A stretch of 64,000 bases of DNA from Leadbettera azotonutricia ZAS-9 (GTDB taxonomy: Bacteria; Spirochaetota; Spirochaetia; Treponematales; Breznakiellaceae), in contig NC_015577.1 in assembly GCF_000214355.1 (NCBI RefSeq), positions 620,001-684,000 of the forward strand, given 5' to 3'. Every line of letters starts with the position of its first letter. Within the stretch, counting starts at the first letter, position 1. Below the pieces are notes generated by a model that was not told the origin of the DNA, searched no databases, and saw only the letters and a program-made list of their open reading frames with translations. The position numbers were made by a program, and so were the translations under genes. Below are positions 9,670-31,114 of this stretch, one piece after another.

Positions 9670-10616
9670 GCATGCCCTGCAATCTTGAGGAGCCGGGAAG
9701 CCAATTCCTCTGCCAGTTTTTGGCTTTCTTCACGGGGCCCGGAAATTTCATCACGGAAAAATGCCGCGCCTGGTTTAATTTCGCTGTGTGCGGCCAGGAG
9801 CGCCTGAATATGTATTTCGCTCCCGGTGATCCGTGCATAGGCGGCGGCAGGGGAACCGCAGCCGCCGCCTGCTGCTTTGATAAAGGCCCGTTCAGCCAAC
9901 GCTTCTTCCGCGGTGACAGGATCGTTTATATCTTTGAGGAAGCTGTACTCGTCATCCTTTCGCCCCTGAACCGCAAGCACGCCCTGGCCTGCGGCGGGGA
10001 TCATTTTTTCTACCGGAAATATGTAGGCAGCCCTCGGGAGGAGGCCGAGCCGTTCAAGGCCCGCGGCCGCCAGGATCAAAAGGCCGTATTGCCCGCTGTC
10101 AAGCTTGTTGATCCTGGTGGGCACGTTCCCCCTGATAGGGGAGAAGTCCGGGGCAGATGCCAGGGCGCGGAACTGAATCTGCCGCCTCAAGCTGGAACAG
10201 CCTGCGGGCGGGGGAACTTTCCCGTTATGCTGATTAGCATAATTGCGGTTCAGGTTTTCAAAACCTTCAAAGGGTTCATCCTTGGGGAGTATGAGGCAGT
10301 CCCTTGGATCGCCCCGCTTTGCCAGGGCCACAATAGGCAAATCCTTTGGGGTATCTGCAGCCATGTCCTTGAGGCTGTGGACGCAGAGGTCAACTTCATT
10401 CCTGGCAAGGGCGTCTTCCAATGCACCAGTAAAGATGGCTTTGCCGTTCCCGGTATTTTCCAAAGCGAGATTGGGTTTTAGATCCCCCAAGGTCTTCATG
10501 GTTACCAATTCAAGTTTGAGTTCGGGGTGGGAACGGGCAATGGCATCCATGACGATTCGGGTTTGGGCAATTGCCAGGGCGCTTTCCCTGCTGCCTATGC
10601 GAATCAGATTCTTCAT
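9666..10616 (-). CDS. hemC: Porphobilinogen deaminase (hydroxymethylbilane synthase)
   Basis: The 316-residue enzyme polymerises four porphobilinogen units. The catalytic Asp is in HSLKD (Asp84), and Cys253 in AGGGCGSP is the dipyrromethane cofactor attachment site. The SLRRQIQ and IRGNVPTRINKL substrate-binding blocks are present. It overlaps both neighbours by about 4 bp, so translation is coupled through the cluster. hemA, hemL and hemB, needed to make porphobilinogen, are not in the window. Confidence 0.95.
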   Translation of the reverse strand: MKNLIRIGSRESALAIAQTRIVMDAIARSHPELKLELVTMKTLGDLKPNLALENTGNGKAIFTGALEDALARNEVDLCVHSLKDMAADTPKDLPIVALAKRGDPRDCLILPKDEPFEGFENLNRNYANQHNGKVPPPAGCSSLRRQIQFRALASAPDFSPIRGNVPTRINKLDSGQYGLLILAAAGLERLGLLPRAAYIFPVEKMIPAAGQGVLAVQGRKDDEYSFLKDINDPVTAEEALAERAFIKAAGGGCGSPAAAYARITGSEIHIQALLAAHSEIKPGAAFFRDEISGPREESQKLAEELASRLLKIAGHA

Positions 10617-11194
10617 GGTATTTTTTCGCCCCTCAGCATGCGGGTTATGAGCTCATCAATAACGGGAAGGGTTTTTTCCGGACCCTGGGCTTTCCTGAGC
10701 CTTCGCCTTTCTTCGCCCAAGAATTGCAATTCTTCTGCCCAGTCCTCGGGCCACTCTTCTTCAAGCTCTTCTTTGAGGCGGGCAGTGAAACGGGGGCAAT
10801 GGCCTGAACTGCTTAAGCCTGTCACCAGATCCCCCCGGCGCACTATGGCAGGAAAGAAGAAGGTGCAGGCCGAAGGATCGTCGGCAACATTCACGGGAAT
10901 ACCCAGAGCTTGGGCATCTGTTGAAACGCGATGGTTTATCACTTTGTCGCTGGTGGCGGCGATGACGAGCCTCATGCCGCGTATATCTTCAGGGCCGGAA
11001 TAGGGCCGCTTTAAAACTGTTACCGCGTCTTCCAGTGCCAGGGCTTCCAGGAGATCCGAAGCGTCGCTGGCTATGGCTATGACCGTTGCGCCGAAATCGA
11101 GGAGGGTTTGAATTTTGCGGACCGCGACAGGGCCGCCGCCTATAACTGCGCAAGGGAGCTTTTCAAGATTGATAAAAAGGGGAAAATGAGCCAC
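10613..11194 (-). CDS. Precorrin-2 dehydrogenase / sirohydrochlorin ferrochelatase (CysG N-terminal type)
   Basis: This is a 193-residue Rossmann protein with the NAD motif AVIGGGPVAVRKI at residues 16-28, plus the CysG/Met8 blocks NVADDPSACTFFFPAIVRRGDLVTGLSSSGHCP. It oxidises precorrin-2 to sirohydrochlorin and in many homologues also inserts Fe to give siroheme. The methyltransferase half of CysG is absent because it is supplied by the CobA domain encoded two genes downstream. The gene lies between the JAMM protease gene (6 bp upstream) and hemC. Confidence 0.92.
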   Translation of the reverse strand: MAHFPLFINLEKLPCAVIGGGPVAVRKIQTLLDFGATVIAIASDASDLLEALALEDAVTVLKRPYSGPEDIRGMRLVIAATSDKVINHRVSTDAQALGIPVNVADDPSACTFFFPAIVRRGDLVTGLSSSGHCPRFTARLKEELEEEWPEDWAEELQFLGEERRRLRKAQGPEKTLPVIDELITRMLRGEKIP

Positions 11195-11984: not shown

Positions 11985-13055
11985 ATGAAAAAAGAGATTT
12001 TGAAGAAACTGCCGGTATTGGCATTTCTCCTGTTTGCCGGGACCCTCTATGCGGCCGGGGGAGGGGATGCTCCTGTCGCAGCCCCGTCCGGGGCTGCTGC
12101 CAAGGCAGCGAAGGAAATCACCATCCTCAATGTGTCCTACGACCCCACCAGGGAGTTGTACCAGGATTATAACGAAGTTTTTTCAAAGTATTATAAAGAA
12201 AAAACCGGCGACACCGTGATAGTTCACCAGTCCCATGGCGGTTCGGGCGGGCAAGCCCGGGGTGTCATCGAGGGCAACGAGGCTGATGTGGTGACCTTGG
12301 CTCTGGCCTACGATGTCATGCAGATTGGCGACAAGGCCAACCTCATCGACGCAAATTGGCAGACCCGGCTTCCCCGCAACAGTTCGCCTTATACCTCGAC
12401 CATTGTCTTCCTGGTGAGGGCAGGGAATCCCAAGAACATCAAGGACTGGGACGATCTTGTGAAGAGCGGCGTCCAGGTTATTACTCCTGACCCGAAAACT
12501 TCAGGGGGCGCCCAGTGGAACTTCCTGGCGGCCTGGGCTTTTGCCAAGGAAAAATACGGCAGCGATGCGCGGGCCAGGGATTTTGTCAAACAGCTTTACG
12601 CCAATGTCCCGATTCTGGATTCAGGCGCCAGGGGCTCTACCAATACCTTTGTGCAGCGCGGCCTTGGGGATGTGCTCCTTGCCTGGGAGAATGAAGCTTT
12701 CCTTTCCATTAATGAACTTGGTCCCGGGAAGTATGATATTGTGGTTCCTTCTTTGAGTATCCTTGCGGAGCCTACGGTTTCCTGGGTAGACGGAATTACT
12801 TCGCGCCGTGGCACTTTGGATGTGGCCAAAGAGTACCTTACGTATCTTTACTCTCCTGTAGGCCAGCGCCTCGCAGGGAAGCATTATTACCGCCCCACTG
12901 ATCCTGAAATCGCGAAAGAATTTGCATCCCAGTTCCCTGTCCTTAGGCTTGTTACAATTGATGAATACTTTGGCGGCTGGAGAAAGGTTCACGATGAGTA
13001 TTTTGGGGACAATGCAATATTTGACAAGATTATTACCGAGCTGAATAAAAAATAG
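11985..13055 (+). CDS. sbp: Sulfate/thiosulfate-binding periplasmic protein
   Basis: This 356-residue exported protein begins with a signal peptide (LPVLAFLLFAGTLYA) and an Ala-rich linker. Family blocks NVSYDPTRELY, HQSHGGSGGQARGV and the late GGWRKVHDEYFGDNAIFD place it in the Sbp/CysP family that delivers sulfate or thiosulfate to CysTWA. AAAAGGAG lies just upstream of ATG 11985. It is the first gene of the operon and 12-18 bp from cysT. It is likely induced by sulfur limitation through the elements at 11921-11952 (inference). Confidence 0.93.
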   Translation: MKKEILKKLPVLAFLLFAGTLYAAGGGDAPVAAPSGAAAKAAKEITILNVSYDPTRELYQDYNEVFSKYYKEKTGDTVIVHQSHGGSGGQARGVIEGNEADVVTLALAYDVMQIGDKANLIDANWQTRLPRNSSPYTSTIVFLVRAGNPKNIKDWDDLVKSGVQVITPDPKTSGGAQWNFLAAWAFAKEKYGSDARARDFVKQLYANVPILDSGARGSTNTFVQRGLGDVLLAWENEAFLSINELGPGKYDIVVPSLSILAEPTVSWVDGITSRRGTLDVAKEYLTYLYSPVGQRLAGKHYYRPTDPEIAKEFASQFPVLRLVTIDEYFGGWRKVHDEYFGDNAIFDKIITELNKK

Positions 13056-13066
13056 GATTTAAAGGA

Positions 13067-13927
13067 ATGTTTATGGGAATAAAAATTACAGCCGCCAAAA
13101 AGCCCCGTTCCCGGGGAACAGGGCTGCCGGGTTTTGGTTTAACCCTGGGGCTTTCCATGACCTATATGGCTTTGCTGATTTTTATTCCCTTGAGCGCCCT
13201 TATTTTGTATTCAGCCCGCATTGGCCCCCGGGAATTCTGGGTTCTGATCAGCGACGAGCGGGTAATGGCGGCTTTTAAGATTTCGTTTTTGTCTGCCTTT
13301 ATCGCGGCGCTTTTTAATTTTATTTTTGGCCTCGTTATTGCGTGGGTTTTGACCCGGTATACTTTCCCGGGAAAAAGGATCATTGATGCTTTGATTGATC
13401 TCCCTTTTGCGATCCCCACAGCAGTGGCAGGCATTGCCCTGGCTTTTATCTTTTCCCCTAATGGAATCATGGGGGTCTTTTTAAAAAATTTCGGCCTTGA
13501 GCTTGCCTATTCCCGGAAGGGGATTGTCCTGGCATTGGTTTTTATCGGCCTCCCCTTTGTGGTGAGGACAGTGCAGCCGGTTATCCAGGAACTGGACAAG
13601 GAGCTTGAAGAAGCTGCTGCGAGCCTGGGCGCGGATTTTTACCAAATTTTTGGGAGGGTTATTTTTCCCTCCCTCTTTCCTGCCCTGCTTACCGGTTTTG
13701 CCCTGGCCTTTGCCCGGGGCCTGGGGGAATATGGTTCGATTATTTTTATATCCAGTAACCAGCCCTATCACACAGAAATTGTACCACTGCTAATTGTAAA
13801 AAAGTTATTGCAGTTTGATTACCGGGGCGCGTCTGTTATCGGCGTTACCATGCTGGTCTGTGCTTTTGTACTATTGCTGTTGATCAATTTTCTCGAAGCC
13901 TTTGCCGCGCGGGGAAAAAGCAGATGA
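13067..13927 (+). CDS. cysT: Sulfate ABC transporter permease CysT
   Basis: The 286-residue inner-membrane protein has about six transmembrane helices and the permease EAA loop EEAAASLGADFYQIFGRVIFP. It carries the CysT-type blocks ALIDLPFAIPTAVAGIAL and ARGLGEYGSIIFIS. It pairs with CysW to form the translocation pore for sulfate. Translation may start at ATG 13067 or ATG 13073. It overlaps cysW by 4 bp. Confidence 0.93.
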   Translation: MFMGIKITAAKKPRSRGTGLPGFGLTLGLSMTYMALLIFIPLSALILYSARIGPREFWVLISDERVMAAFKISFLSAFIAALFNFIFGLVIAWVLTRYTFPGKRIIDALIDLPFAIPTAVAGIALAFIFSPNGIMGVFLKNFGLELAYSRKGIVLALVFIGLPFVVRTVQPVIQELDKELEEAAASLGADFYQIFGRVIFPSLFPALLTGFALAFARGLGEYGSIIFISSNQPYHTEIVPLLIVKKLLQFDYRGASVIGVTMLVCAFVLLLLINFLEAFAARGKSR

Positions 13928-14754
13928 TTGTCCCGGCGATAAACAAAGAACCCCGGTGGATAAAGCCGGTACTCCTTTTCCTTGCCCTTGTCTTTCTGGC
14001 AGTATTTATTTTTATTCCTCTTTTTACCATTTTTCATCAGGCCCTGGGCTCGGGGCTAAAGGTTTATTTTAAAAACCTTATGGAGCCTGATATTTTCGCG
14101 GCTATCAAGCTGACGCTTGTTGTTGCCCTGGTCTGCGTCCCGGTGAATACCTTCTTTGGAATTTTATTGGCCTGGGTAGTTACCAAGTTCGAATTTAAGG
14201 GAAAGAACATACTTATTACCTTGATTGAAGTCCCCTTTGCCATAAGCCCGGTTATCGCAGGGCTGCTTTTTATATTTTTGTTTGGATCTTTCGGATGGTT
14301 CGGGCAATGGCTTATTGCCCATCACCTCAAAGTCGTCTTTGCCCTTCCTGGAATTTTCCTTGCCACTGCCTTTGTTACCTTCCCCTTTGTCGCCCGGGAA
14401 CTCATTCCCCTGATGCAGGAGCTTGGCAGGGACGATGAAGAGGCAGCCATGACTCTGGGCGCCAAGGGATTTCAGATTTTTTTCCGCATCACATTGCCCA
14501 ATATCAAGTGGGGGCTCATCTACGGTGTTGTATTGACCAATGCCCGGTCCATGGGGGAATTCGGCGCTGTAGCTGTGGTGTCGGGCCTTATCCGGGGGGT
14601 TACTACCACCATGCCCCTTTATATCGATATTCTTTACAATGAATACCGCTATGCTGCTGCCTTTGGGGTGGCCTCGCTCCTTACCCTCCTGGCCCTGGCT
14701 ACATTGATTGTGAAAACCATAGTCGAACATTTTAATTCGGTGAGGAAAATATGA
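13924..14754 (+). CDS. cysW: Sulfate ABC transporter permease CysW
   Basis: This 276-residue permease shows the CysW blocks [15 protein letters not shown], the EAA loop [23 protein letters not shown] and [15 protein letters not shown]. Several hydrophobic helices span the membrane. It overlaps cysT and cysA by the ATGA arrangement, so the three transporter genes are translationally coupled. Together with Sbp and CysA it imports sulfate. Confidence 0.93.
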
Positions 14755-15824
14755 GCATAGAAATTTCCCATATTAGTAAAAAGTTCGGCGCTTTTACGGC
14801 CCTGGAGGATATCAACCTAACGATCCCAAGCGGCGAGATCACTGCCCTCCTGGGGCCTTCCGGTTCGGGAAAGACCACCTTGCTGCGGATTATTGCGGGC
14901 CTTGAAATGCCCGATTTAGGCAGCATCAGCCTTTTTGGAGAAGATTCGACTTTTAAGCAGACCAGGGATCGCAAGGTAGGTTTTGTGTTTCAGCATTATG
15001 CTTTATTTAAGCATATGAGTGTCTTTGAAAATATCGCCTTCGGCCTTAGGATACGGCCAAGAAAGTTTAGGCCGTCGAAAGAAGAAATAAGAGAAAAAGT
15101 GCTAAAACTGCTTTCCCTGGTACAGCTTGAATCCCTGGCAAACCGTCTTCCCAATGAATTGTCCGGCGGTCAGAAACAGCGTGTTGCCCTGGCAAGGGCC
15201 CTTGCCATTGAACCCAGGGTGTTGCTCCTTGATGAGCCTTTCGGCGCCCTTGATGCCAAGGTGCGCCAGGAACTGCGGCGCTGGCTCCGCTTTCTTCATG
15301 ATGAGATACACATTACCAGCGTATTTGTTACACATGACCAGGAGGAGGCCCTTGAAGTTTCTGACAATATCGTCATACTTAACAAGGGCAAGGTAGAACA
15401 GGTAGGTTCTCCCGAGGATGTTTATGACAGGCCCGCTAATCCTTTTGTGTATGGCTTCCTGGGCAATGTCAATCTTTTCCATGCCCGTCTGGACAAGGGT
15501 GTGCTGAACCTTGAAGGTAATGGAGCCCTTCAGGAAGAAGTTTCCCCGGAGGTTTCATTCTTTGTCCGCCCCCAGGATGTGTCAATTTCCCTTTCCAATA
15601 GCGATGGCAAAGGCATAGAAGCGAGGATTACGGATCACAGGGTTTTGGGCGGCAGGGTGAGGGTAAATCTAAAGACCTTCACCGGGGGCAAAGAAATTGA
15701 AGCGGATATCGAAAAGAAACAGTGGAGCCTCATAGCGAAGGAAAATCGTGAGACTGTGTTCCTGTTCTTTTCGGGCGCCAAAATTTATACCAAAGATGAG
15801 ACATGGAGCGATTATGCCATCTAG
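14751..15824 (+). CDS. cysA: Sulfate ABC transporter ATP-binding protein CysA
   Basis: The 357-residue ATPase has Walker [10 protein letters not shown], the Q loop FVFQHYALF, the signature [15 protein letters not shown] and Walker [14 protein letters not shown]-terminal TOBE-like region ([17 protein letters not shown]) is as in CysA/MalK-type importers. It energises CysTW at the inner face of the membrane. The gene overlaps cysH by 11 bp if cysH starts at 15814. Confidence 0.94.
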
Positions 15825-16512
15825 CGAAACCAGGGTTGAAGTATTGGCAAAAATAATGAGGAGCATTAGCGGCCCTGTTGCCCTCGCCTATAGTTGCCAG
15901 CGGGAGGATACTGCTGCTTTGCACCTCCTTCTCCAGGCGTATGCCGGCGGCGATGGACCAGGAAATTTGGAAGTTTTTACCCTGAATACCCATAAACTTT
16001 TTCCTGAAACTGAAGAATACCAGAGGGATGTAGAAGTTTTTTTTGGCATTGCTATTACAAAATATTCCCCCGATCCGGCTGAAGAAAAAGATTTGGAAGC
16101 CAAGTTAGGCGAATGGGGCATGAGGGAAAGCCTTGAGCACCGCCATTTCTGTTGTGACATACGCAAGGTGAAGCCTCTGGGGGAAATTCTTAAAAATAAA
16201 AGCGCATGGGTAACAGGATTGAGGGCATCCCAATCGGTTACCAGGCAGGATTTAAAAATTCTCGAATACGATGAGAAATTCGGGCTTATCAAAATAAACC
16301 CTCTTTATGACTGGACTGATGAAGAGCTTGAAGCGTATACCCAAAAATTCAGTCTCCCCGAAAATCCGTTGTACTCCAAAGGATATAAGAGCATAGGCTG
16401 CGCCCCTTGTACGCGGCCGGTGAAGGAGGGCGAGGACATCAGGGCTGGCCGCTGGTGGTGGGAAAACCCTGAACACAAGGAATGTGGCCTCCATGTAAAG
16501 CAGGGAGCATAA
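15814..16512 (+). CDS. cysH: Adenylylsulfate (APS) reductase, iron-sulfur type
   Basis: I choose ATG 15814, which has GGAG five bases upstream, giving 232 residues. An in-frame start further up (15748) would run deep into cysA. The protein reduces APS to sulfite using thioredoxin or glutaredoxin. The Cys pairs FCCDI and GCAPC mark the [4Fe-4S] APS-reductase subclass, and the C-terminal KECGLH holds the catalytic Cys. No APS kinase (cysC) is seen in the window, which agrees with direct use of APS. Confidence 0.93.
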
Positions 16513-16519
16513 GGAAAAT

Positions 16520-17422
16520 ATGAGTGATGCAAAAACCGGAAGACTGAGCAAACTGGACAAACTTGAATCCCAGAGTGTTTTTATCATAAGAGAAGCGTAT
16601 AAATCGTTTAAGAATATCGGTATGCTTTGGTCCATAGGCAAGGATAGCACTGTATTGCTGTGGCTTGCGAAAAAGGCTTTTTTCGGCCATGTGCCTTTTG
16701 AATTAATCCACATAGACACAAGCTTCAAGATCCCCGAGATGATCGCATACCGCGACAGGCTCGCAAAAGAGCTCAAACTGCGCCTTGTTGTAGGGCAAAA
16801 CATCAAAGCAATTGCAGAAAAACGTACTTTTCCTGACGGTCTGGACCGCATCAGCTGCTGCAAGGAATTAAAGACAATTCCTCTTAGGCAGACTTTGGAC
16901 GGCACAGGCCCCCGCAGGGTTTATGATCCCAATAAAGACGCTTGGGAAGAACTGGAAAGGGCCGAGCCGTATAACGCAGTAATAGTGGGGGTCCGCAGCG
17001 ACGAGGAGGGGAGCCGTTCCAAGGAACGGGTTTTTTCCGCCAGAGACGAAAAGAACGAATGGGATGCCAGCGCCCAGCCTCCGGAACTTTGGAACCTCTA
17101 TAAAACCGAATTTGCTCCGGGAACCCATGTGCGGGTGCATCCCCTTTTGGACTGGACTGAACTCAATGTCTGGGAATATATAGAAAGGGAAAAGATACCT
17201 ACCATTTCGGTTTACTATAACCAGGGAGACGGTAAGCGTTACCGGTCTTTAGGCTGCTACCCCTGCACCAATCCGGTGGACTCCGACGCCCATAACCCAA
17301 AAGAAATCATCGAAGAACTTATCAGCGGGAAATTCAGGAATATTGCAGAACGTTCAGGCCGGGCCCAGGATAAGGACGGTGGCGGCACTTTGGAAACCTT
17401 GCGCAAAGAGGGATACATGTAA
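16520..17422 (+). CDS. cysD: Sulfate adenylyltransferase subunit 2 (ATP sulfurylase small subunit)
   Basis: The 300-residue PP-loop protein carries the nucleotide motif [14 protein letters not shown] and family blocks [16 protein letters not shown] and [13 protein letters not shown]. With CysN it activates sulfate to APS at the cost of GTP hydrolysis. AAGGAAA precedes ATG 16520, and the stop overlaps the cysN start by 1 bp (TAATG). Confidence 0.95.
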
Positions 17423-18783
17423 TGGACGATTTGCATGAAAGGATGAATATTGTCATTACAGGCCATGTGGATCACGGCAAGAGTACCTTGGTGGGCCGTC
17501 TTTTGGCAGATACCCTTACCCTACCCGAGGGCAAGCTGCAAGCGGTAAAAGATTCGTGCAAGAAAAACGGCAGGGTCTTTGAATATGCCTTTTTGCTTGA
17601 CGCCCTTGAAGACGAGCAGAAACAGGGCATTACCATAGACAGTGCCCGTATTTTTTTTAAAAGCAAAAAACGTGAATATATTATCATTGATGCGCCGGGG
17701 CATATTGAGTTTTTGCGAAATATGCTGAGCGGCGCTTCCCGTGCCGAGGCCGCAGTATTGGTAATTGACGCAGTCGAAGGGGTGGCGGAAAATTCCAAGC
17801 GTCATGGTCTCCTTCTTTCCCTTCTGGGTATTTCCCAGGTTCTCGTAGCAGTAAACAAACTTGACGCCGTGAATTACGACGAACAGGTATTTGAACGTAT
17901 CAAAAATGAATATACCGCGTACCTTGAAACCCTCAAGGTAAAACCCCTGGCTTTTGTGCCGGTGAGCGCCAGGGAGGGCAAGAACATTACCGAACCAGCC
18001 TCCGAAATGCCCTGGTACACCGGGAGCACGGTACTGGAAATACTCGATAGTTTTAAGCGTCTTTCTACTAACGAAAACAGTTTTTTTGCCATGCCTGTGC
18101 AGGATGTCTACCGTTTTAGCAACGATAATGACGATAGGCGCATTTATGCGGGAACCGTGGTAAGCGGTGAAATTTTCGTAGGCGATTCTGTAACCTTCCT
18201 GCCTTCAAAAAAAACTGCCCATGTCAAAAATATCGAAGTCTGGAATGCCCCGCCGAGGTCAAGCATTAGCACCGGAGAGGCTGCGGGCCTGACTCTTGAG
18301 GAAGAGATCTATATCAAAAGCGGCGAGGTGATGGTTAAGTCCCTGGAAAAATCCCTTGTAGAAACCAGTACCCGGGTTAGGGCCAATGTAATTTGGCTGG
18401 GGATGAGACCTTTAGGCTTCAACAAAACCTACCTCCTAAAACTCGGCTGCGCCAGGGTAGAGGCAAGACTCGAAAAAATCGAAAGCTTCCTTGGCGACGA
18501 CCGGGAAGAATACGATGAACTCCGCCGCCATGAGTGCGGCAGCGTGATACTCGGCTTTGCCCGGCCTACAGCGATCTCCAGTTTTTATGACAACGCCGAT
18601 CTGGGCCGCTTTGTGTTGGTGGATGGTTACGATGCTTCAGGGGGCGGCATTATCCTGGAAAACCTGAGCGCAAAGAAATCCTGGGAAAGCCTCAACAGTT
18701 TTGAGGGCCTTGCCGGCAAAGACAACTTTGAAGAAGAGCTTTTTGCTCTGCTAAAGAAGTATTTTCCTCAGCGGTTCGAGTAG
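17422..18783 (+). CDS. cysN: Sulfate adenylyltransferase subunit 1 (GTPase)
   Basis: This 453-residue translational-GTPase relative has G1 [13 protein letters not shown]2-region [10 protein letters not shown]3 DAPGHIEF and G4 NKLD, plus EF-Tu-like beta-barrel domains. It drives APS synthesis by CysD. There is no fused CysC kinase domain (the C-terminus ends shortly after [23 protein letters not shown]). It is the last gene of the seven-gene sulfate operon and converges on the E1-like gene with 52 bp between. Confidence 0.95.
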
Positions 18784-19660: not shown

Positions 19661-19929
19661 CAGTTAACTCCTGCGGAGGAAGAAAGTCCCCCCTTGACCA
19701 CCGTGAGGAGAAAGGTGCCGTCCTCCGATTGTGTGACATTTGTCACCTTGTGGCCCTCGTCTTTAAGGCTGCGGGGAACATTCTGAATGGGCTCGCCTGC
19801 ATTGAGGCGGACTTCGAGCACCTGTCCATCGTCCAGTTCTTCAAGGGCAACTTTGGTTTTTACAAAGGTAACAGGGCACACTACAGTGGTGATATCCACC
19901 TTTGCGTCTATATGCTGGGCGTCGCTCAT
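19660..19929 (-). CDS. TusA/SirA-like sulfur-transfer protein
   Basis: An 89-residue TusA-fold protein with the persulfide-carrying Cys18 in VVCPVTFVKTKVALEEL. It likely relays sulfur between the sulfite reductase product and the carrier or E1 enzyme encoded next to it. The C-terminal tail (KGGLSSSAGVN) is flexible. It overlaps sulfite reductase by 4 bp. The role in this pathway is inferred from context. The fold call is secure. Confidence 0.9.
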   Translation of the reverse strand: MSDAQHIDAKVDITTVVCPVTFVKTKVALEELDDGQVLEVRLNAGEPIQNVPRSLKDEGHKVTNVTQSEDGTFLLTVVKGGLSSSAGVN

Positions 19930-20792
19930 GCAAGGGCCTCCTCTAAATCTTTTTTAAGAACGTCGGCGCCTATACGGGCTATGGTTTTTCCCAGGCGTTC
20001 TGAGGGCTTGCCATGGGCTTTGTAAAATTTGATGACCCCGTCGGCAGCCTTAAAAACCTGGGGTTTTTCAAAGATCAGGGGAAGGAGGCGGAGTCCTTCT
20101 TTTATGTCATTGCCGAACATACCGCCGAATGAGAGCACATAGCCGCTCTTGCCCTTCCAGGCTTCTGTGGGGCAGCTTTTGACGCACTTGCCGCAATAGA
20201 CGCAGCCCTTTTCATCAAAGGCTAGATCTTTTTTATCTTTATCAACCTTGACGACGTTCACGGGGCACACTGCTTCGCAGACTCCGCAGAAGGTACAGGC
20301 TGGTTTTTCCCAGACCGGGAAGATGCCGCCCTTGATGCCGAAGTCGTTTTCCTCGGCCTTGAGGCAATTGTTCTTGCAGCCTGTGATCCCAATCTTGAAT
20401 TTGTGGGGCAGTTCGAGGCCGAAGTAGCGCTGGTCGAGCTCTTTTGCCAGATCGCTGGTTTCTATAGACCCCGAAGGGCAGACTGTTTTGCCCTGACAGG
20501 CCGTCACTGTCCTGACCCTGGGGCCGCAGACCCCGATCAGCACATTCGCCGAGGCCAGATCCTGCTTCACTTTTTCGATATCCGCAAGATCAATGAAGGG
20601 GATTTCGACCCCCTGGCGGGAGGTGAAGTGCACATAGCCCTTGCCGTATTTCCTGGCAACCTCGCTGATCTTGTCAAGCTGGGCTGAACCTATCTGCCCG
20701 CCTATAACTTTGAGCCGCATGGAGAATTTGTCTTTTTGAACCTGCCGCATGAATCCGTCCTTTTTTAGGGCGGCATAATCTGTTTCAGCCAT
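19926..20792 (-). CDS. Compact siroheme sulfite reductase with two ferredoxin-type clusters
   Basis: The 288-residue protein joins a nitrite/sulfite reductase core to an inserted 2x[4Fe-4S] ferredoxin segment. Siroheme-cluster ligands are C99-X5-C105 and C139-X3-C143. Ferredoxin motifs are C166xxCxxCxxxC176 and C197xxCxxCxxxC207. It is far shorter than CysI and resembles AsrC-like or small assimilatory reductases of anaerobes. It would reduce sulfite from CysH to sulfide, using siroheme from the 8.1-11.2 kb operon. AAGGAG sits 7 nt before ATG 20792. Confidence 0.88.
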   Translation of the reverse strand: MAETDYAALKKDGFMRQVQKDKFSMRLKVIGGQIGSAQLDKISEVARKYGKGYVHFTSRQGVEIPFIDLADIEKVKQDLASANVLIGVCGPRVRTVTACQGKTVCPSGSIETSDLAKELDQRYFGLELPHKFKIGITGCKNNCLKAEENDFGIKGGIFPVWEKPACTFCGVCEAVCPVNVVKVDKDKKDLAFDEKGCVYCGKCVKSCPTEAWKGKSGYVLSFGGMFGNDIKEGLRLLPLIFEKPQVFKAADGVIKFYKAHGKPSERLGKTIARIGADVLKKDLEEALA

Positions 20793-22363: not shown

Positions 22364-23539
22364 ATGGCACGGCTTTTTACATCAGAATCGGTAACCGAAG
22401 GTCATCCGGACAAACTCTGCGATCAGATCTCGGATTCGATTCTGGATGCCCTTCTCAAAGAAGATCCGGAGTCCCGTGTAGCGTGTGAAACCCTGGCCAC
22501 TACCGGGCTGGTGCTGGTGGCCGGGGAAATTTCAACCAAAGCATACGTGGATATACCTAATGTGGTCAGGAAGACTATTGCCGAAATCGGCTATACGGAT
22601 AATTCGGGGGGCTTCGATGCAAAAACATGCGCAGTCCTGGTAGCCTTGGATGAACAGTCCCCGGATATTGCCCAGGGAGTGAACAAGGCTCTTGAGGCAA
22701 GGGAGGGCAAGGATGATCAGGAAACTGGCGCGGGGGATCAGGGCATGGTATTTGGCTATGCTTCCGACGAAACCCCGGTGTATCTTCCGGCGCCCATATT
22801 CTATGCCCACGCCCTTACCCGAAAACTGGCGGAGGTTCGGAAAAATGGAACCTTACCGTACTTGAGGCCCGATGGCAAATCCCAGGTGACCGTTGAGTAT
22901 GACGACGCAGGGAAAGTTAAGCGTATTCATACTATTGTGCTCTCGGCCCAGCATGACGCCGAGGTGAGCCAGGAAACCCTAAGGGAAGGGATAATCCAAA
23001 AGGTGATAAAAGCAGCCCTGCCCGGGGAGCTTTTGGATGCCCAGACCAGGTATCTGATAAACCCGACTGGCCGTTTTCATGTGGGTGGACCCCAGGGAGA
23101 TTCGGGGCTCACAGGCAGAAAAATTGTGGTCGATACCTACGGAGGGGTAGGCCGCCACGGAGGCGGCGCTTTTTCCGGCAAGGATCCGACCAAGGTGGAC
23201 AGATCCGCAGCTTATGCAGCCCGGTGGATTGCCAAGAACCTTGTGGCAGCCGGTTTTGCAAAACGCCTTGAAGTGGAGATCGCTTATGCAATCGGGGTTG
23301 CCCGGCCTGTTTCTATCGCGGTGGATACCTTCGGCACAGGAAAACTGCCTGAAGAAAAAATCGTGGCAATCATAGAAAAAGAATTTGATCTGCGCCCCGA
23401 TGGGATTATCAAGCAGTTCAATCTGCGCAGGCCCATCTACAGGCAGACTGCAGCGTATGGCCATTTTGGCAGGGCGGACATCGATCTCCCCTGGGAAAAA
23501 TTGGATAAAGTCGAAGTTCTTAAAAGGAGTATTTCATGA
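22364..23539 (+). CDS. metK: S-adenosylmethionine synthetase
   Basis: This 391-residue enzyme makes SAM from methionine and ATP. All main blocks are present: [28 protein letters not shown] and [19 protein letters not shown]. It overlaps the radical SAM gene by ATGA and heads a run of eight same-strand genes through to 31114. The placement suggests SAM supply for the radical SAM enzyme or product methylation. Whether it is the cell's only MetK or a dedicated extra copy cannot be told here. Confidence 0.96.
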
Positions 23540-24756
23540 GCATTTATGGAGAAGTTAAGAAATCAAAACTGTTGGATGAGATTTACCTGAAAAACCGTAT
23601 CCTGGTTGAAGGCCTCTCTTTTGAACCCGGGATTTTCAAAAACCTGGATCTGGGGAACAGGTTCATCGAACAGGTGAATGTGCTTTTTGCGGTTGATAAG
23701 CATGCCCACAATTCAGTGGAATTTCCCGGATGCTTTCTCACCCCCCTGGGAAATTACCGCACCCAGATACGGTGGAACCAGCAGAGCCCCCTTTCCCTGG
23801 TGTACGAGGATGGACAGTTCAACATTCGGGATCAGGGCAAGCCGGTTATAGAAAAGGTCAAGTTTGCAAAACGGCCTGACTATTACCGGCGCAAGACTTC
23901 TGACGGGACAGACATGCGGACTGTAGCCACGGATAACGGGAACGGGGCGATGTTTGTTTCATACAGCAACGAATGCTCTCTAAAAGAGAAGGGCCTGGAT
24001 TGCCGCTTTTGCAATATCAATGCGACCAAATCCATTTATGGCGATTCCCAGAACATTAAATGGAAGACCCCTCAGCAGGTGGGCGAAACCATTGCGGCAG
24101 GCTACAACGAAGGCTTTGACCATGTGACAATCAGTGGAGGATTTATTTCCGAGCGCCGTGAAGTGGAATACTACATCGATGTGGCAGAGGCGATTCAGGA
24201 ACATACAGGGCTTCAGGATTTTAACGGTACCGGCGTTATCGGGGCGCCTTTGGATCTGGATGTTTTTGAAAAATACAAGGAAGCGGGCTATCGTACTATG
24301 GCGACAAATATAGAACTCTGGAACGAAAAGATGTTCGATGTGATTTGTCCCGGGAAAGCCCAGCTTTGCGGGGGCCGGCAGAATTGGCTCAATGCCCTGG
24401 ATGAAGAAGTGAGGGTTTTTGGAAAATACAAGGTGCGTTCCACCATGGTGGCAGGCATTGAACCCAAAGAGTCCCTTCTTGAAGGGGTAGAATATCTGAT
24501 CGAACGGGGTGTCATTGCCCAGCCGAGCCAGTGGAACGTGAACGTGGGTTCACCCCTTGAGGGGCACAGGACTCCGAACCAGGACTGGCACTGGGATGTC
24601 TTTGAAAAGACCGTGACCCTCTATATCAAGCATGGGATCACCTGGGACGAACTGCGGGATTCAAATGCAGGAACCGATGCGGTCCCCTTTGACCTCTACC
24701 GTCTGGAACAGGGGATCGAGCTCAACGAAGCGGAAAAACTTAAATATACCGCATAA
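23536..24756 (+). CDS. Radical SAM enzyme with CX8CX2C motif, nitrogenase-like cluster
   Basis: The 406-residue protein has Cys147, Cys156 and Cys159 in the segment [19 protein letters not shown]. This is a CX8CX2C spacing instead of CX3CX2C. A glycine-rich HVTISGGF around residue 200 fits the SAM-binding strand, and the later part ([23 protein letters not shown]) looks like the second half of a TIM barrel. An N-terminal region of about 140 residues precedes the motif. I do not recognise a characterised family. Location suggests a cofactor-maturation or substrate-modifying role for the NifH/D/K-like proteins. AAAGGAG precedes the start. Confidence 0.85.
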
Positions 24757-24783
24757 ACAGTTTAATCAAAAGGAAGAAATTTT

Positions 24784-25806
24784 ATGAAAACAGTAAAGTT
24801 GCCATTAGTTGCAATAGTGTTAATAACGTCCCTCGTTCTCTTTAGTTGCTCTGGTAAAAAAGAAGCGGCAGCTCCTGCTGCCGGGTCTGCGGCTGTGGCA
24901 GAAAAACCCTTCGTCATAAGGGTCGGGGCCGACAGCGCCAATTTTTCCTACCAGTTCCGGGTTGCCCAGAAGGCGGGTATTTTTGATAAATACAATATCA
25001 AAGCTGAAATATTAACCTTCTCCTATGGCATTGATACCATAAATGCCGCCATCCTTGGTGAAACGGATTCAGCCGAAGCCATGGATTTTGCGGCGGCTTC
25101 CCGGTTCTCTGAGAGCAACAAGCTCAGGGTGTTGGCTACCATCACTACCTCGGTTCCCGGGGGGAGCCACCTTTATGTGCGGCACAATGACATCAAGACC
25201 CCGGCTGATCTTAAGGGGAAGCGCATTGGCGTACAGAAGGCTACTGCCAACGAGTATACCTGGGCCCGGCTTTTTGAAAAATATGGCCTCAAGAAAGAAG
25301 ATGTAAACCATGTGTACCTGGGTTCCAATGCGGAACTCCTGGCTGCTTATCAGTCCAACGAAATAGACGCCCTCTGGGTGGGCGCTGATATTGAAAAAGC
25401 CATACAGGAGATCCCTGCCAGCAGGAACCTGGGGGACAACTCCCTCTCGGGCTATCTGTCCCGGGGTTTCCTGCTCCTGGACGCGGATGTGATCGCCAAA
25501 GAGCCCGCCGGTGTGGAACGCTTCCTGAAAGCCCTGGACGAGGCGACTGCTTATATAAAGGGCCATCCCGATGAAACCGCCAAGATAGCTTACGATGATC
25601 TGAAGATACCCCTGGATGCAGCTCTTAAAAGCATCTCGGCAATAAATTACGAACTCAGGCTTACCCAGGAAGATCTGGATCAGATCACCAATGTGGCAAA
25701 TTGGTCGATTGACAACGGCCTTATCAGGAACCGTTACAACATCAACGATTTTGTGGATCTGAAGCCCTTGCGCAATGCCCTGCCTGATCGGGTAACTGTC
25801 CAATAA
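24784..25806 (+). CDS. ABC transporter substrate-binding lipoprotein, NMT1/SsuA/TauA class
   Basis: A 340-residue lipoprotein with lipobox LVLFSCS and an Ala-rich linker. The mature domain has the family pattern of a nitrate/sulfonate/taurine-type binding protein: FVIRVGADSANFSYQFRVAQKAGIFDKY, DLKGKRIGVQKATANEYTW and AYQSNEIDALWVG. It captures the ligand outside the membrane for the ATPase and permease encoded next. The ligand cannot be deduced. An organosulfur, nitrogenous or tetrapyrrole-like compound is possible. Ribosome site AAGGAAG is upstream. Confidence 0.9.
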   Translation: MKTVKLPLVAIVLITSLVLFSCSGKKEAAAPAAGSAAVAEKPFVIRVGADSANFSYQFRVAQKAGIFDKYNIKAEILTFSYGIDTINAAILGETDSAEAMDFAAASRFSESNKLRVLATITTSVPGGSHLYVRHNDIKTPADLKGKRIGVQKATANEYTWARLFEKYGLKKEDVNHVYLGSNAELLAAYQSNEIDALWVGADIEKAIQEIPASRNLGDNSLSGYLSRGFLLLDADVIAKEPAGVERFLKALDEATAYIKGHPDETAKIAYDDLKIPLDAALKSISAINYELRLTQEDLDQITNVANWSIDNGLIRNRYNINDFVDLKPLRNALPDRVTVQ

Positions 25807-25815
25807 GGAATAATT

Positions 25816-26664
25816 ATGTCGGAAGCAGCAGTGATTAATGATCTGCGTACCGCCATTAGGGACGAGGCTGCGGTGGGGCAGCCCGTCTACAGCGGCCCCC
25901 TGATCCGGATTAAGGATATGTCCCTGAGCTATCAGGGTGAAAAAAAGGAAGCCCCGGTCAATGTCCTTGCCGGGGTGAACCTCGAAATCCAAAAAGGCGA
26001 ATTCCATATACTCCTGGGTCCTTCTGGCTGTGGAAAATCCACTCTTCTCAATGTTATTGTAGGGTATCTTAAGAATTCCGGCGGGGAAGTAACCATTTAT
26101 GGAAAGAAGATCGAAAAGCCCGGCAGGGATCGGGGCATGGTTTTCCAGAATGCGGATTCGGCGATCTTCCCCTGGCTCACAGTACAGCAAAATGTGGAAT
26201 TCGGCCTCAAGATGAGGGGGGTTAATAAAAAGGAACGCCGTGTAACAGCCCTGCATTATATCGCATTGGTTGGCTTGAACGGTCATGAGAAGAAATTTCC
26301 CAACGAGCTTTCTGGGGGTATGAAACAGCGCACCCAGATTGCCAGGCTTCTCGCCAACGATTCGGATATCCTGGTAATGGATGAACCTTTCGGCGCCCTG
26401 GATGCCCAGACTCGTCGGATCATGCAGGGGGAATTGGCCAGGACCTGGCGGGAAACGAATAACACCATTGTTTTTGTCACCCATGATATTCAGGAAGCCA
26501 TCCTGCTGGGACAGCATATCCATATTATGTCCCGGGCGCCCAATGCGAAGATTTTTAAAACCTATGACACCGATCTGCCCTACCCCCGGAAAGAATCTGA
26601 TCCGAAATTCCAGGATCTCTTCAGCCGGATTCAGGGGCATTTTGATTTCGGCGGCGGCATTTAA
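25816..26664 (+). CDS. ABC transporter ATP-binding protein, NitT/TauT class
   Basis: The 282-residue ATPase has Walker A LGPSGCGKSTLLN, signature ELSGGMKQRTQIARLL and Walker [13 protein letters not shown]. An N-terminal extension of about 35 residues precedes the nucleotide domain. It starts 9 bp after the binding protein and 11 bp before the permease. It powers the importer for the nitrogenase-like system's presumed substrate. Confidence 0.93.
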   Translation: MSEAAVINDLRTAIRDEAAVGQPVYSGPLIRIKDMSLSYQGEKKEAPVNVLAGVNLEIQKGEFHILLGPSGCGKSTLLNVIVGYLKNSGGEVTIYGKKIEKPGRDRGMVFQNADSAIFPWLTVQQNVEFGLKMRGVNKKERRVTALHYIALVGLNGHEKKFPNELSGGMKQRTQIARLLANDSDILVMDEPFGALDAQTRRIMQGELARTWRETNNTIVFVTHDIQEAILLGQHIHIMSRAPNAKIFKTYDTDLPYPRKESDPKFQDLFSRIQGHFDFGGGI

Positions 26665-26675
26665 AAGGAGTTCCT

Positions 26676-27473
26676 ATGAGCGGCGTGAATTCTGCCCGGT
26701 TCCTGATCCGTTCGGGGATAGTTACCTGGGTATTGCTGATAGCTATTTGGTGGGTCTTTTCCCTCTTCTATTCTTCCACCTTCCTGCCCAGCCCGCTGGA
26801 AACCTTAATCGGGGCCAGGGAAATTATTCTGGATGGAACCCTTTTTAAATTTGCAGGGGTGAGCCTTTGGCGGGTAATCAAAGGGTGGCTCATCGGTTGT
26901 GCTGTAGCAGTCCCCATAGGCATACTCATAGGCCGCAACAGGATAGTTCGGCAGCTGGTGGAGCCGGTCATCGACTATTTCCGCTTTATTCCGGCTATTG
27001 CTTTTCTTACCCTTTTCATTATGTGGTTCGGGGTGGGCGAAAAATCCAAAACCATTCTGATTATGTACGCCACTTGTTTTACTGTCATTATCAATACCGC
27101 GAGTGGCGTCCTGAGCATCGATGAAAACCGTATTTTGGCTGCTCGTACTTTAGGTACCAGCGAGGCTCAAATCCTCTTCCATGTGATACTTCCCTCCTGC
27201 GTACCCTTCATCTTTACCGGTGTGCGCCTTGGCATGGGCGGCGCGTACACTTCGATAGTGGCTGCGGAAATGATTGCAGCCAAGGAAGGTCTCGGTTACC
27301 TCATCTTTACTTCCCGGCTTTATTTCCGCATAGACTGGATTCTTGCAGGCGTCATTGTGCTTGGTCTCATAGGCTTTCTCACGGATCAGGGCTTGCGGCT
27401 TTTGGGCAAGGGTATACTCAAGCGTTATGGCATCAACGATACCAAAGAATTTGATCAGGGCCGTACAGGATAA
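26676..27473 (+). CDS. ABC transporter permease, NitT/TauT class
   Basis: This 265-residue inner-membrane protein has about six helices and the family EAA loop RILAARTLGTSEAQILFHVILPSCVPFIFTGVRLG. The C-terminus ends GINDTKEFDQGRTG. AAAGGAG precedes ATG 26676, and the next gene begins 3 bp after the stop, so the transporter and the NifH-like protein are almost certainly coexpressed. Confidence 0.93.
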   Translation: MSGVNSARFLIRSGIVTWVLLIAIWWVFSLFYSSTFLPSPLETLIGAREIILDGTLFKFAGVSLWRVIKGWLIGCAVAVPIGILIGRNRIVRQLVEPVIDYFRFIPAIAFLTLFIMWFGVGEKSKTILIMYATCFTVIINTASGVLSIDENRILAARTLGTSEAQILFHVILPSCVPFIFTGVRLGMGGAYTSIVAAEMIAAKEGLGYLIFTSRLYFRIDWILAGVIVLGLIGFLTDQGLRLLGKGILKRYGINDTKEFDQGRTG

Positions 27474-27476
27474 ATC

Positions 27477-28352
27477 ATGGCTAATCAAAAGGCAAAACAT
27501 ATTGCGATCTACGGAAAGGGAGGCATCGGTAAATCCACTACCACCTCCAATATCAGCGCTTCCCTTGCCGAGGCAGGGTACAGGGTAATTCAGATAGGCT
27601 GCGATCCCAAAAGCGATTCTACCAATGTCTTGCGGGGCAATGAGTATCTGCCCACTGTCCTTGACAGCATGAGGGACGGCAGCAAGGTCCACCTTGAGGA
27701 TATTTCGCGGCTTGGCTTCGGCGGCGTACTCTGTATTGAGTCCGGCGGGCCTGTACCGGGGGTAGGGTGCGCCGGACGCGGAATAAATGCAGCAGTGACT
27801 TTATTGCAGGAGCTTCATCTTTTTGATGAATTCAAGCCCGACTTTGTTCTCTATGATGTGCTGGGAGACGTGGTCTGCGGCGGTTTCGCAGTGCCCATCA
27901 GGGATGGAATTACCGACAGGGCGTATGTGGTAAGCTCATCGGATTTTATGGCTATTTACGCAGCCAATAATCTTTTTAAGGCAATCAGCAAGTACGCCCC
28001 CACAGGCGGGGCAAAACTCGGCGGAGTTATAGGCAATGGCCTTTCGGCGGCATATTCCCAGGGTATCATCGACGATTTTGCCAAAAGAACCGGCGCCGGC
28101 GTGACAGGTTACATACCCCGATCGCTTACCGTGTCCCAAAGCGAACTCTACGGAAAGACGGTGATTGAAGCCAGTCCCGAATCGGAGCACGCCGGGCTCT
28201 ACAGGGAGCTTGCAAAAAAAGTATCGGAAAACGAGGATCTGGTCATCCCGAACCCCCTGGCTGCAGCGGATCTCCGTTCCTGGGCAAAAGATTGGGGGGA
28301 TAAAATCTTCAAGCTGGAACTCGGCGTAGTAGAAGGGCGAGAGGGAATATAA
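27477..28352 (+). CDS. NifH-like reductase (nitrogenase-like iron protein)
   Basis: The 291-residue P-loop ATPase has Walker A YGKGGIGKSTTTSN (from residue 12), DPKSD (43-47) and both [4Fe-4S] ligands, Cys98 (GVGCAGRG) and Cys134 (VVCGGF). It would hydrolyse ATP and pass single electrons to the D/K-like partner. It is not accompanied by nifEN, nifB, nifV or other nitrogen-fixation genes, so a non-fixing nitrogenase-like role is more likely. In the same superfamily are BchL, BchX, CfbC and the methylthio-alkane reductase iron protein. Which of these it is nearest needs a tree. Confidence 0.92.
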   Translation: MANQKAKHIAIYGKGGIGKSTTTSNISASLAEAGYRVIQIGCDPKSDSTNVLRGNEYLPTVLDSMRDGSKVHLEDISRLGFGGVLCIESGGPVPGVGCAGRGINAAVTLLQELHLFDEFKPDFVLYDVLGDVVCGGFAVPIRDGITDRAYVVSSSDFMAIYAANNLFKAISKYAPTGGAKLGGVIGNGLSAAYSQGIIDDFAKRTGAGVTGYIPRSLTVSQSELYGKTVIEASPESEHAGLYRELAKKVSENEDLVIPNPLAAADLRSWAKDWGDKIFKLELGVVEGREGI

Positions 28353-29774
28353 ATGCCCCTATTTGATACGAGAAGAGCCCTGACCAGGGAAAAACGCAGC
28401 GGCGCTTTAAGCCATTATCACGGCACTTTGGTTTCCATTTTGGAAGACAGTTCGGGCACTGAAATTCCCCAGCGTGTTCGTACCTTAAGCCAAAGTTCGC
28501 CGGGCGAGGTTTTGTATGCCCTTAACGCAGTAAGCGGTATAACAGGTTCGGCAGCGGTAATACATGGCGGCATAGGCTGTTCAGCTTCAAGCTTCGCATT
28601 GGGAAAAAATTCATCTTATAATTTCTATACTACCAATCTCAACGAAAGCGACACCATTCTGGGGGGAGATGAAAAACTTCGTACAGCCGTTGTCAGGGCT
28701 TATAAGGAAAACCATCCATCGGTTATTTTTATTATCGGGACCCCCATCAATGCAATTAATAACGATGATGTAGATTCGGTAATACTGGAACTTGAGGACG
28801 AGCTTGGCTGCAAAATCATTTATATCGATGTAAACGGATTCAGAACCAAGAACGCCCTTTCAGGTTATGATCAAGTGTACCATTCTTTTTTAAAATATCT
28901 GGTTGAACCAGTGCAGGATGCAAATACCCGGTTCATAAATTTGATAAGCCTTTCTGAAAACCCGGAAAATGTTTTTGTAATAGCGGAACTGCTTAAGCGC
29001 CTGGATATACCCTGCAATATTATTCCGCATTTTTCCGGAATCCGGGGAATTCAAAAGGCTTCCGGTGCTTTGTTCAGCATTTCCCTTGACGATGGCGAGA
29101 ATGAATATTTTCTCCAGGGCCTTGAAGAAAACTTCAGCGTACCCTGGATTAAAACAAACCCTCCTATAGGTTCAGCCCAAACTTCAGACTTTATAAGAAA
29201 GATTGCTCAAGTCTTTGGCAGCGGGGAAAAGGCCGAAAAATTGATAGCAGAAGAAGAAAAGGGTATTGCTGCCAGTATCGGCAATAAACCCCTTGGCGGG
29301 AAAAAGGTCTTCCTCAATATGGATCTGCATAGGGCTGTAAGTTTTGCGGCCCTGGTTGAAGAATTCGGCGGGGAAGTACTGGGCCTTGCCGTTCCCCATT
29401 TGGACAAGGGAAATGAATTTCTGTTAAAGGAACTTTCCGGCCTGCCCAGGACTCTCCCGTTTATTATAGCCAAAGGCCAGCAGTTTGAACTTGCCAATGC
29501 GCTTTCGAAACATCCTGCGGATTTTTATATTGGCGACAGCGATAGCTCCGCCACAGCCGCGCGTTTTGGCGCCCAAGCTCTTTCCCTGGATAGTATAAGC
29601 TATTACGGATATAGCGGACTAGAAAAATTATCCTCTGAATTGCAAAAAATTTCCGCAGCCGGCATATTCCCCGTCGGCATCTCCCCGACCGAAGACGGTA
29701 AAACCGCTTCACTCTACTCCGAAAGCTGGCTCAAACGGAGCGGCAACTGGTATGTCAAGGTCGAGGTGAAGTAA
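28353..29774 (+). CDS. NifD/K-like subunit A of nitrogenase-like reductase, Cys-poor
   Basis: A 473-residue protein of the nitrogenase component-1 fold, with GGIGCSASSFA (Cys76) matching the central P-cluster Cys block and GTPINAINNDDV matching the nitrogenase CPxGxIGDDI block with Thr in place of Cys. No Cys occurs near the N-terminal position (SQSSPGEVL). Only one of the three usual ligands is thus present. No clear counterpart of the FeMo-cofactor Cys/His is seen. It begins at the base after the NifH-like stop. I infer an electron-transfer/catalytic heteromer with subunit B. Confidence 0.85.
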   Translation: MPLFDTRRALTREKRSGALSHYHGTLVSILEDSSGTEIPQRVRTLSQSSPGEVLYALNAVSGITGSAAVIHGGIGCSASSFALGKNSSYNFYTTNLNESDTILGGDEKLRTAVVRAYKENHPSVIFIIGTPINAINNDDVDSVILELEDELGCKIIYIDVNGFRTKNALSGYDQVYHSFLKYLVEPVQDANTRFINLISLSENPENVFVIAELLKRLDIPCNIIPHFSGIRGIQKASGALFSISLDDGENEYFLQGLEENFSVPWIKTNPPIGSAQTSDFIRKIAQVFGSGEKAEKLIAEEEKGIAASIGNKPLGGKKVFLNMDLHRAVSFAALVEEFGGEVLGLAVPHLDKGNEFLLKELSGLPRTLPFIIAKGQQFELANALSKHPADFYIGDSDSSATAARFGAQALSLDSISYYGYSGLEKLSSELQKISAAGIFPVGISPTEDGKTASLYSESWLKRSGNWYVKVEVK

Positions 29775-31114
29775 TGCACAGCATATTGAAGAACCCCCGC
29801 CATGGCTGCGAACTTCATGGCGCTCTTAAAACACTGGAAGAGATATCCGGGACGGTTCCCATTGTGCATGCAAATGCAGGCTGCGTGTATCAGCACTATA
29901 ATTTTGACAGGGCCGGGGTTTTGGCAGCAGGGGGAATATCCGGCCCCGAGATCCCCGCCACAGAAGTAATAGAAAAGCAGATAGTATTCGGCGGCGCATC
30001 CCGGCTCAGGGAAGAAATTAAGAATGCCGCGAAAGTAATCGAAGGCCGGCTCTACGTGATCCTGGGGAGCTGCGAAGCAGCCATGGTCGGCGATGATTTG
30101 GCAGCCATGGCAAAGGAAGCCAGGGATATTTCCCTGCCTGCGCTTTGCTATCCCGCAACAGGGTTCAGGGGCGGGAGCCATAACGGCTACGCGAATGTAT
30201 TGCAATCCGTACTGCAGCAGCTTCCCGAAATTAAAAAGCTTAATACCGAAAAAACAAAGGGCCTTGTCAATATTCTGGGCATTCTTCCCAAAACCGATGT
30301 TTTTTATAAAGGCGACCTCGAAGAAATCAGGCGGCTTGTCGAAGCGGCCGGCCTTAAGGCAAATATTTTTTTCGGAACCCCTGATGGGGTAGGGGATCTG
30401 GAGCGGAGCGTGCAAGCCGGGCATACCCTGGTTTTTTCCCACTGGGGCATTGCCCCTGCAGAGCAGCTCAAATCCAAATACGGAATCCCCTATACCGTAT
30501 TTGACAGCCTTCCCCTTGGAATAGACGAGGCAAAAGAATTTTTTGCGGCCCTTTCTGCAATTCCCGGAGCCGACCGGGAAAAAGCGAAAGCATTTATCGA
30601 AAATGAAGAACAACAGTATCAGTTCTATTTTCGCAGTATCAGCACTGTCTTTTTTTTAGAAGCCCTTGCGCGCAATGTAGTGCTTGCCGGCGACACCAGC
30701 AGCGTAAACAGGATAGGCAAGTTCCTGGAGAAAAAGCTCGGGGCGTCCGTCAAAGCCGCCATACTCACCGACCGCTATGGCAAGGACGAAAACAAGCCGC
30801 CCCTTCCCGAGGGCCTGGGCGAAAAGATCATTGAAAGTTCCGACAGCGGCGAAATAGAAGAAATAATACGCGGCTCCGGCGCTGAATTCATCCTTGGAAG
30901 CGCATGGGAAACCCGGATTGCCAAAGCCCTTGGAATACAAAGCCTTGTCATTTCTGCCCCGAATAGCGACAGGCTGTTGCTGCACAAAACCTATGCCGGC
31001 ATCAGGGGCGCCTATTTCCTTGCCGAGGATTATATAAGCGCCATTTTGCAGCATAAAACAGAAAAGGAGGCGGAACAGCGCCGCCTCCTCGAATCGTTAA
31101 GCGTCTCCCTCTAG
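29774..31114 (+). CDS. NifD/K-like subunit B of nitrogenase-like reductase, three cluster Cys
   Basis: This 446-residue component-1-fold protein retains three spaced cysteines, Cys12 (RHGCELHG), Cys37 (ANAGCVYQH) and Cys100 (LGSCEAAMVGDDL), with the following GDD. The spacing is like the cluster ligands of NifK or BchN. With Cys76 of subunit A this gives a 3+1 set suited to one intersubunit [4Fe-4S] cluster, not a full P-cluster. It overlaps subunit A by 1 bp (TAATG). Its 3' end contains the htpG terminator. Confidence 0.85.
   Translation: MHSILKNPRHGCELHGALKTLEEISGTVPIVHANAGCVYQHYNFDRAGVLAAGGISGPEIPATEVIEKQIVFGGASRLREEIKNAAKVIEGRLYVILGSCEAAMVGDDLAAMAKEARDISLPALCYPATGFRGGSHNGYANVLQSVLQQLPEIKKLNTEKTKGLVNILGILPKTDVFYKGDLEEIRRLVEAAGLKANIFFGTPDGVGDLERSVQAGHTLVFSHWGIAPAEQLKSKYGIPYTVFDSLPLGIDEAKEFFAALSAIPGADREKAKAFIENEEQQYQFYFRSISTVFFLEALARNVVLAGDTSSVNRIGKFLEKKLGASVKAAILTDRYGKDENKPPLPEGLGEKIIESSDSGEIEEIIRGSGAEFILGSAWETRIAKALGIQSLVISAPNSDRLLLHKTYAGIRGAYFLAEDYISAILQHKTEKEAEQRRLLESLSVSL
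31051..31088 (-). terminator. htpG terminator embedded in the opposing gene
   Basis: GGAGGCGG-N7-CCGCCTCC read on the minus strand is followed by TTTTCTGTTTT. It lies about 50 bp beyond the htpG stop, inside the coding 3' end of the nitrogenase-like subunit B gene on the plus strand. Confidence 0.7.

Follow-up and report, generated by a model that had tools for sequence, protein, structure and literature searches.

A probable isethionate-reductase-type nitrogenase-like enzyme with a linked SAM synthetase gene in Leadbettera azotonutricia

What reaction is served by a pair of nitrogenase-like subunits, one of which has kept three cysteines of the cluster site and the other only one? Such a pair, subunits A and B, is encoded in a 64,000-nucleotide stretch (the window) of the complete, 3,855,671-bp genome of Leadbettera azotonutricia ZAS-9. 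An earlier note, made from the sequence alone, had drawn attention to these cysteines. Here the pair is placed in its operon, compared with its relatives and weighed against known nitrogenase-like enzymes.

The operon and its sulfur-assimilation setting

Subunits A and B are the last products of eight plus-strand genes (22364-31114), which overlap or are separated by at most 27 bp. The order is metK2, a radical SAM gene, an SsuA/SsuB/SsuC-type transporter, a NifH-type gene, subunit A and subunit B (Table 1).

Table 1. Genes of the isr operon and of the adjoining sulfur-assimilation locus, in window coordinates
Feature	Position	Strand	Remarks
Siroheme supply: cobA-hemD fusion, hemC, cysG N-terminal type	8134..11194	-	Context, outside the operon
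Sulfate uptake and activation: sulfate-binding protein, two permeases, cysA, cysH, cysD, cysN	11985..18783	+	Context
Siroheme sulfite reductase, AsrC-like	19926..20792	-	Context; expected consumer of freed sulfite
metK2	22364..23539	+	Opens the operon; one of two S-adenosylmethionine synthetases in the genome; TIGR01034 593.6 bits; catalytic motifs intact
isrB-like radical SAM protein	23536..24756	+	NF045502 450 bits
SsuA-like sulfonate-binding lipoprotein	24784..25806	+	TIGR01728 E 3e-28, below family cut-off
SsuB/TauB-type ABC ATPase	25816..26664	+	
SsuC/TauC-type ABC permease	26676..27473	+	TauC and SsuC models; TauC fits best
isrH-like, NifH-type Fe protein	27477..28352	+	TIGR01287 364 bits, below cut-off 394
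isrD-like D-type catalytic subunit (subunit A), 473 aa	28353..29774	+	PF00148 E 8e-60
isrK-like K-type catalytic subunit (subunit B), 446 aa	29774..31114	+	PF00148 E 1e-59

Both catalytic subunits cover PF00148 nearly end to end. Subunit A is of the D type (against its family profile MarD scores 229 bits and MarK 55), and subunit B is of the K type (320 bits for MarK versus 81 for MarD). No viral relatives of subunit B were found, and the plasmid homologues of subunit A are distant ones, nifE and other nitrogenase component 1, with identities of about 25% or less. Alignment identifies Cys98 and Cys134 of the isrH-like protein as [4Fe-4S] ligands, both invariant (21/21). The isrB-like gene overlaps metK2 by 4 bp, and its product has a variant CX8CX2C motif, Cys147/156/159. 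Profile searches found no NifB match for this protein, nor any NifB-type gene in the operon.

Upstream lies a complete sulfate/sulfite-assimilation locus, from which the operon is separated by about 1.6 kb. Similar neighbourhoods are found in relatives: in the genome G038, isrHDK directly follows cysH-cysD-cysN, with a sulfite reductase gene 1.1 kb beyond on the other strand, and in another (G455) a sulfite reductase gene lies about 3 kb from isrD. Sulfite as the product of the enzyme fits these sulfite reductase and sulfate-assimilation neighbours. The isrHDK genes of G038 have no adjoining isrB, ssu or metK; the IsrB-like radical SAM genes of that genome form two groups of three (C1:2077108-2081852 and 3637336-3641264) apart from isrHDK, and their products are 37-43% identical to IsrB of the window (42% for the best matches).

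Conserved cysteines and class assignment

Besides the window, one scan of bacterial genomes and two scans of spirochaete relatives yielded 21 loci with Isr-type proteins, from Spirochaetota and Bacillota; two of these loci are the same contig. The Isr-type proteins were compared with 31 non-Isr D proteins (MarD, NifD, NifE and 28 other group IV proteins) and 33 non-Isr K proteins. In the D tree as well as in the K tree, the Isr-type proteins, with their Bacillota and Spirochaetota members, form one group, to the exclusion of Mar, other group IV and Nif proteins, with an SH-aLRT of 100 for each tree.

The earlier note had read subunit B as keeping three cluster cysteines (12, 37 and 100) and subunit A as keeping only Cys76, with none in the first block, and the alignments bear this out. 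Cys12 and Cys37 are present in 22/22 Isr-type K proteins and Cys100 in 19/19; all three positions are also kept in the non-Isr set (33/33, as against 19/19 Isr). In subunit A, no Cys lies N-terminal to Cys76, which stands in the second block, is the only one of the three P-cluster positions to be kept, and is the sole conserved Cys of the subunit (22/22). The remaining cysteines are lineage-specific (Cys153 and Cys221, 5/22 each). The first-block Cys of NifD and NifE aligns to Arg43, which is invariant (22/22). At the third-block position the note had placed a Thr; alignment to MarD, NifD and NifE instead puts there Pro131, likewise invariant (22/22), and Thr130 is its neighbour. A third-block Cys occurs in 31/31 non-Isr D proteins versus 0/22 Isr-type ones, and the same counts apply to the cofactor-anchor Cys (Cys275/Cys270 position), where Asp, Asn or Ser stands in the Isr-type proteins. 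No His is aligned with MarD His429 in the Isr-type D proteins. Since four cysteines are invariant and the others of subunit A lineage-specific, the pattern is not due to chance.

This lopsided pattern has already been described for Rhodobacter capsulatus (Morimoto 2024, PMC11423573). There, IsrD has a single Cys74, equivalent to NifD Cys88, with Arg at the first and Pro or Ser at the third lost Cys position, and IsrK has Cys12, Cys37 and Cys99. IsrD is without equivalents of Cys275 and His442, FeMo-co was judged unlikely, and a [4Fe-4S] cluster held by Cys74 of IsrD and Cys12/37/99 of IsrK was suggested (PMC11423573). All four isrBHDK genes and the ssuCAB transporter are required for anaerobic growth on isethionate, and isethionate lyase substitutes for Isr function, sulfite release being shown by this complementation; IsrDK copurified, with Fe-S absorption reducible by dithionite, and Spirochaeta is among the isr carriers (PMC11423573).

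The published features are matched one by one in the window, from the residues of both subunits, including the missing FeMo-co ligands (22/22), to the linked non-NifB radical SAM gene and SsuABC-type transporter (23536-27473), so that the window most likely holds a member of the Isr class. The same gene set, together with the adjoining sulfur-assimilation locus, points most likely to an isethionate-reductase-type enzyme, which would free sulfite from a small sulfonate. Judging by residue features, clade, operon and context, subunits A and B are probably IsrD and IsrK of an IsrBHDK-type enzyme.

One [4Fe-4S] cluster between the subunits, with 3+1 Cys ligands and without a FeMo-type cofactor, appears to be the best reading of the conserved residues, its geometry following from homologous positions. 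It also agrees with the proposal for IsrDK (PMC11423573). The earlier note had predicted such a cluster, and this part is partly supported, although the note neither identified the enzyme nor saw that the polarity is reversed relative to DPOR. Single-chain models of both subunits match Mar subunits best (for D, Foldseek rank 1 is 9fmg_A; for K, Z is 36.5 to 9d9u_D, with BchB next at about 33); they have low pLDDT in the stretches near Cys76 (D) and Cys37 (K). A cluster that differs from this plain form, by a non-Cys ligand or a substrate-bound iron site, is conceivable in that one DPOR ligand is an Asp and that the Isr authors leave a non-Cys ligand possible (PMC11423573); with four Cys invariant across the set, at homologous cluster positions, it seems improbable.

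Putative reaction and the linked metK

From the above we infer the substrate in Leadbettera azotonutricia, the type of cluster, and what IsrB and MetK2 do, as follows. The SsuABC-type transporter would import a small sulfonate, and IsrH, an ATP-driven Fe protein, would deliver electrons to the IsrDK heterotetramer, where they would pass via a single [4Fe-4S] cluster in each DK half, with Cys12/37/100 of K and Cys76 of D as its ligands. IsrDK, with its radical SAM partner IsrB, would cleave the C-S bond and free sulfite, to be converted by the nearby siroheme sulfite reductase to sulfide for biosynthesis. MetK2 probably provides SAM to IsrB.

The same enzyme class and mechanism may serve a small sulfonate other than isethionate, for example a taurine-derived one or 2,3-dihydroxypropane sulfonate. 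The substrate-binding protein falls short of the SsuA family cut-off, TauC is the best fit for the permease, and transporter types vary between isr loci. Moreover, R. capsulatus is the only species with isr genetics and its list of isethionate-induced genes does not include metK (PMC11423573), so the form found in Treponema and Clostridia could act on another sulfonate. Against this, isethionate is the substrate of the sole member tested, and isr mutants of its host can still use taurine (PMC11423573); on balance we regard a different natural substrate as possible but rather unlikely.

The genome has two metK genes, of which one opens the isr operon. In other genomes metK is found at 13 of 18 isr loci, one of these genes being a partial copy; its position varies, as it may precede isrH, follow isrK or stand at the far 5' end. 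The linkage was noted for metK2 of the window and at L046-L048, L050-L059 and L074. Counts of metK loci in 13 genomes gave two or three for each of the 10 that have an isr-linked one; where the linked gene is missing, two genomes (G038 and G503) have one copy each and a third (G497) a fragment only. MetK2 is closer to isr-linked copies from Bacillota (66-71% identity) than to the housekeeping MetK of the same genome (60%). Of 13 isr-linked MetK proteins, twelve form one clade across two phyla (support 96/92); the thirteenth, from Clostridium chromiireducens, has no firm placement, and a single clade of all 13 is not rejected (AU p 0.41). Genes resembling MTA/SAH nucleosidase lie near three isr loci (L047:15678-16388, L056:7329-8078 and L058:6951-7649), and the one that was scanned passes the TIGR01704 cut-off.

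The MetK clade and the occasional nucleosidase suggest that the radical SAM partner uses up SAM, and the linkage is most simply read as a supply of SAM to IsrB, together with the clearing of its SAM by-products. It is also possible that metK and isr merely cluster within a sulfur regulon, with no mechanistic tie. More tentatively, and with considerable doubt, Isr in Spirochaetota and Bacillota may be a co-inherited module with its own MetK lineage, and at some loci a nucleosidase, in which IsrB would spend SAM during, or repeatedly around, C-S cleavage rather than in a one-time maturation, the reductase being coupled to a SAM-regenerating cycle.

Two other ideas about metK were rejected. SAM-riboswitch control is not indicated by any match at gathering score in 18 loci, nor by any Rfam match up to E 1 at 7000-33500 of the window; an altered substrate pocket in MetK2 is at odds with its canonical catalytic motifs, the differences being at peripheral positions only.

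The main text of PMC11423573 does not mention metK, and our literature search, in open-licence papers, found no report of a metK-isr link. So far as we found, then, a spare SAM-making enzyme within an isr operon is unreported, and the cysteine pattern itself has been known since 2024 (PMC11423573). The dedicated metK offers a testable clue to the role of the radical SAM partner in the Isr class. With its reductase beside sulfite-assimilation genes, a Treponema of the termite-gut type joins the organisms that may draw sulfur from sulfonates without oxygen.

Comparison with known nitrogenase-like systems

Among solved structures MarBHDK (PDB 9fmg, 9d9u) comes nearest in both sequence and fold, and it shares the HDK architecture, C-S cleavage and the three K cluster cysteines. 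A Mar-like enzyme freeing methanethiol for methionine and SAM synthesis would make the adjoining metK the end of the pathway, and would accord with the nucleosidase genes at three loci. However, MarD holds a P-cluster via Cys66/91/158 and [Fe8S9C] via Cys270/His429 (PMC12552129), of which Isr-type D proteins keep only the Cys91 equivalent. Mar has six P-cluster cysteines, three per subunit, whereas two of the three are missing from D here; the operon has no counterpart of the NifB-like MarB, the transporter is of the sulfonate type, and in the same genome an O-acetylhomoserine sulfhydrylase gene is directly followed by a separate Mar-like DK pair (L043:4100-8235; C1 about 888100-892235). With P-cluster and cofactor ligands lost, a Mar-like function for subunits A and B was rejected, and we consider it very unlikely. 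NifDK likewise differs from the isethionate-reductase-type pair, in having P-cluster cysteines on both subunits and Cys275 for FeMo-co; a separate nif-type D/K/E/N set is found elsewhere in the genome.

Two more nitrogenase-like loci were observed in this genome. At one (L041:527-13801; C1 about 896500-909800), a DK set is accompanied by a NifB homologue, NifH, a corrinoid protein and an MtaA-type methyltransferase; its D protein retains the third-block Cys and the cofactor Cys, and the set is possibly a methyl-transfer-linked reductase. The other (L042:3758-7253; C1 about 83757-87252) encodes NifH fused to a D-like domain (731 aa) and a K-like protein, next to genes resembling those of cobalamin synthesis and metal uptake.

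DPOR (BchLNB) is similar to the predicted Isr-type arrangement in that one subunit provides three ligands of its [4Fe-4S] cluster and the other subunit the fourth, and in lacking a FeMo-type cofactor. The polarity is reversed: DPOR uses three Cys of BchN and an Asp of BchB, whereas the Isr type has three Cys on the K-type subunit and one Cys on the D-type. COR (BchXYZ) has an all-Cys 3+1 set, three from BchY and one from BchZ. Its polarity, too, is reversed relative to the Isr type if BchY is D-type, and its substrate is a tetrapyrrole. The closest parallel is IsrBHDK of R. capsulatus, with one second-block Cys in D, Arg and Pro where the other two D cysteines have been lost, three Cys in K, no FeMo-co anchors, a radical SAM partner, an Ssu-type transporter and a sulfur-assimilation setting; the operon described here differs in that it also holds a dedicated metK and adjoins sulfate-assimilation genes.
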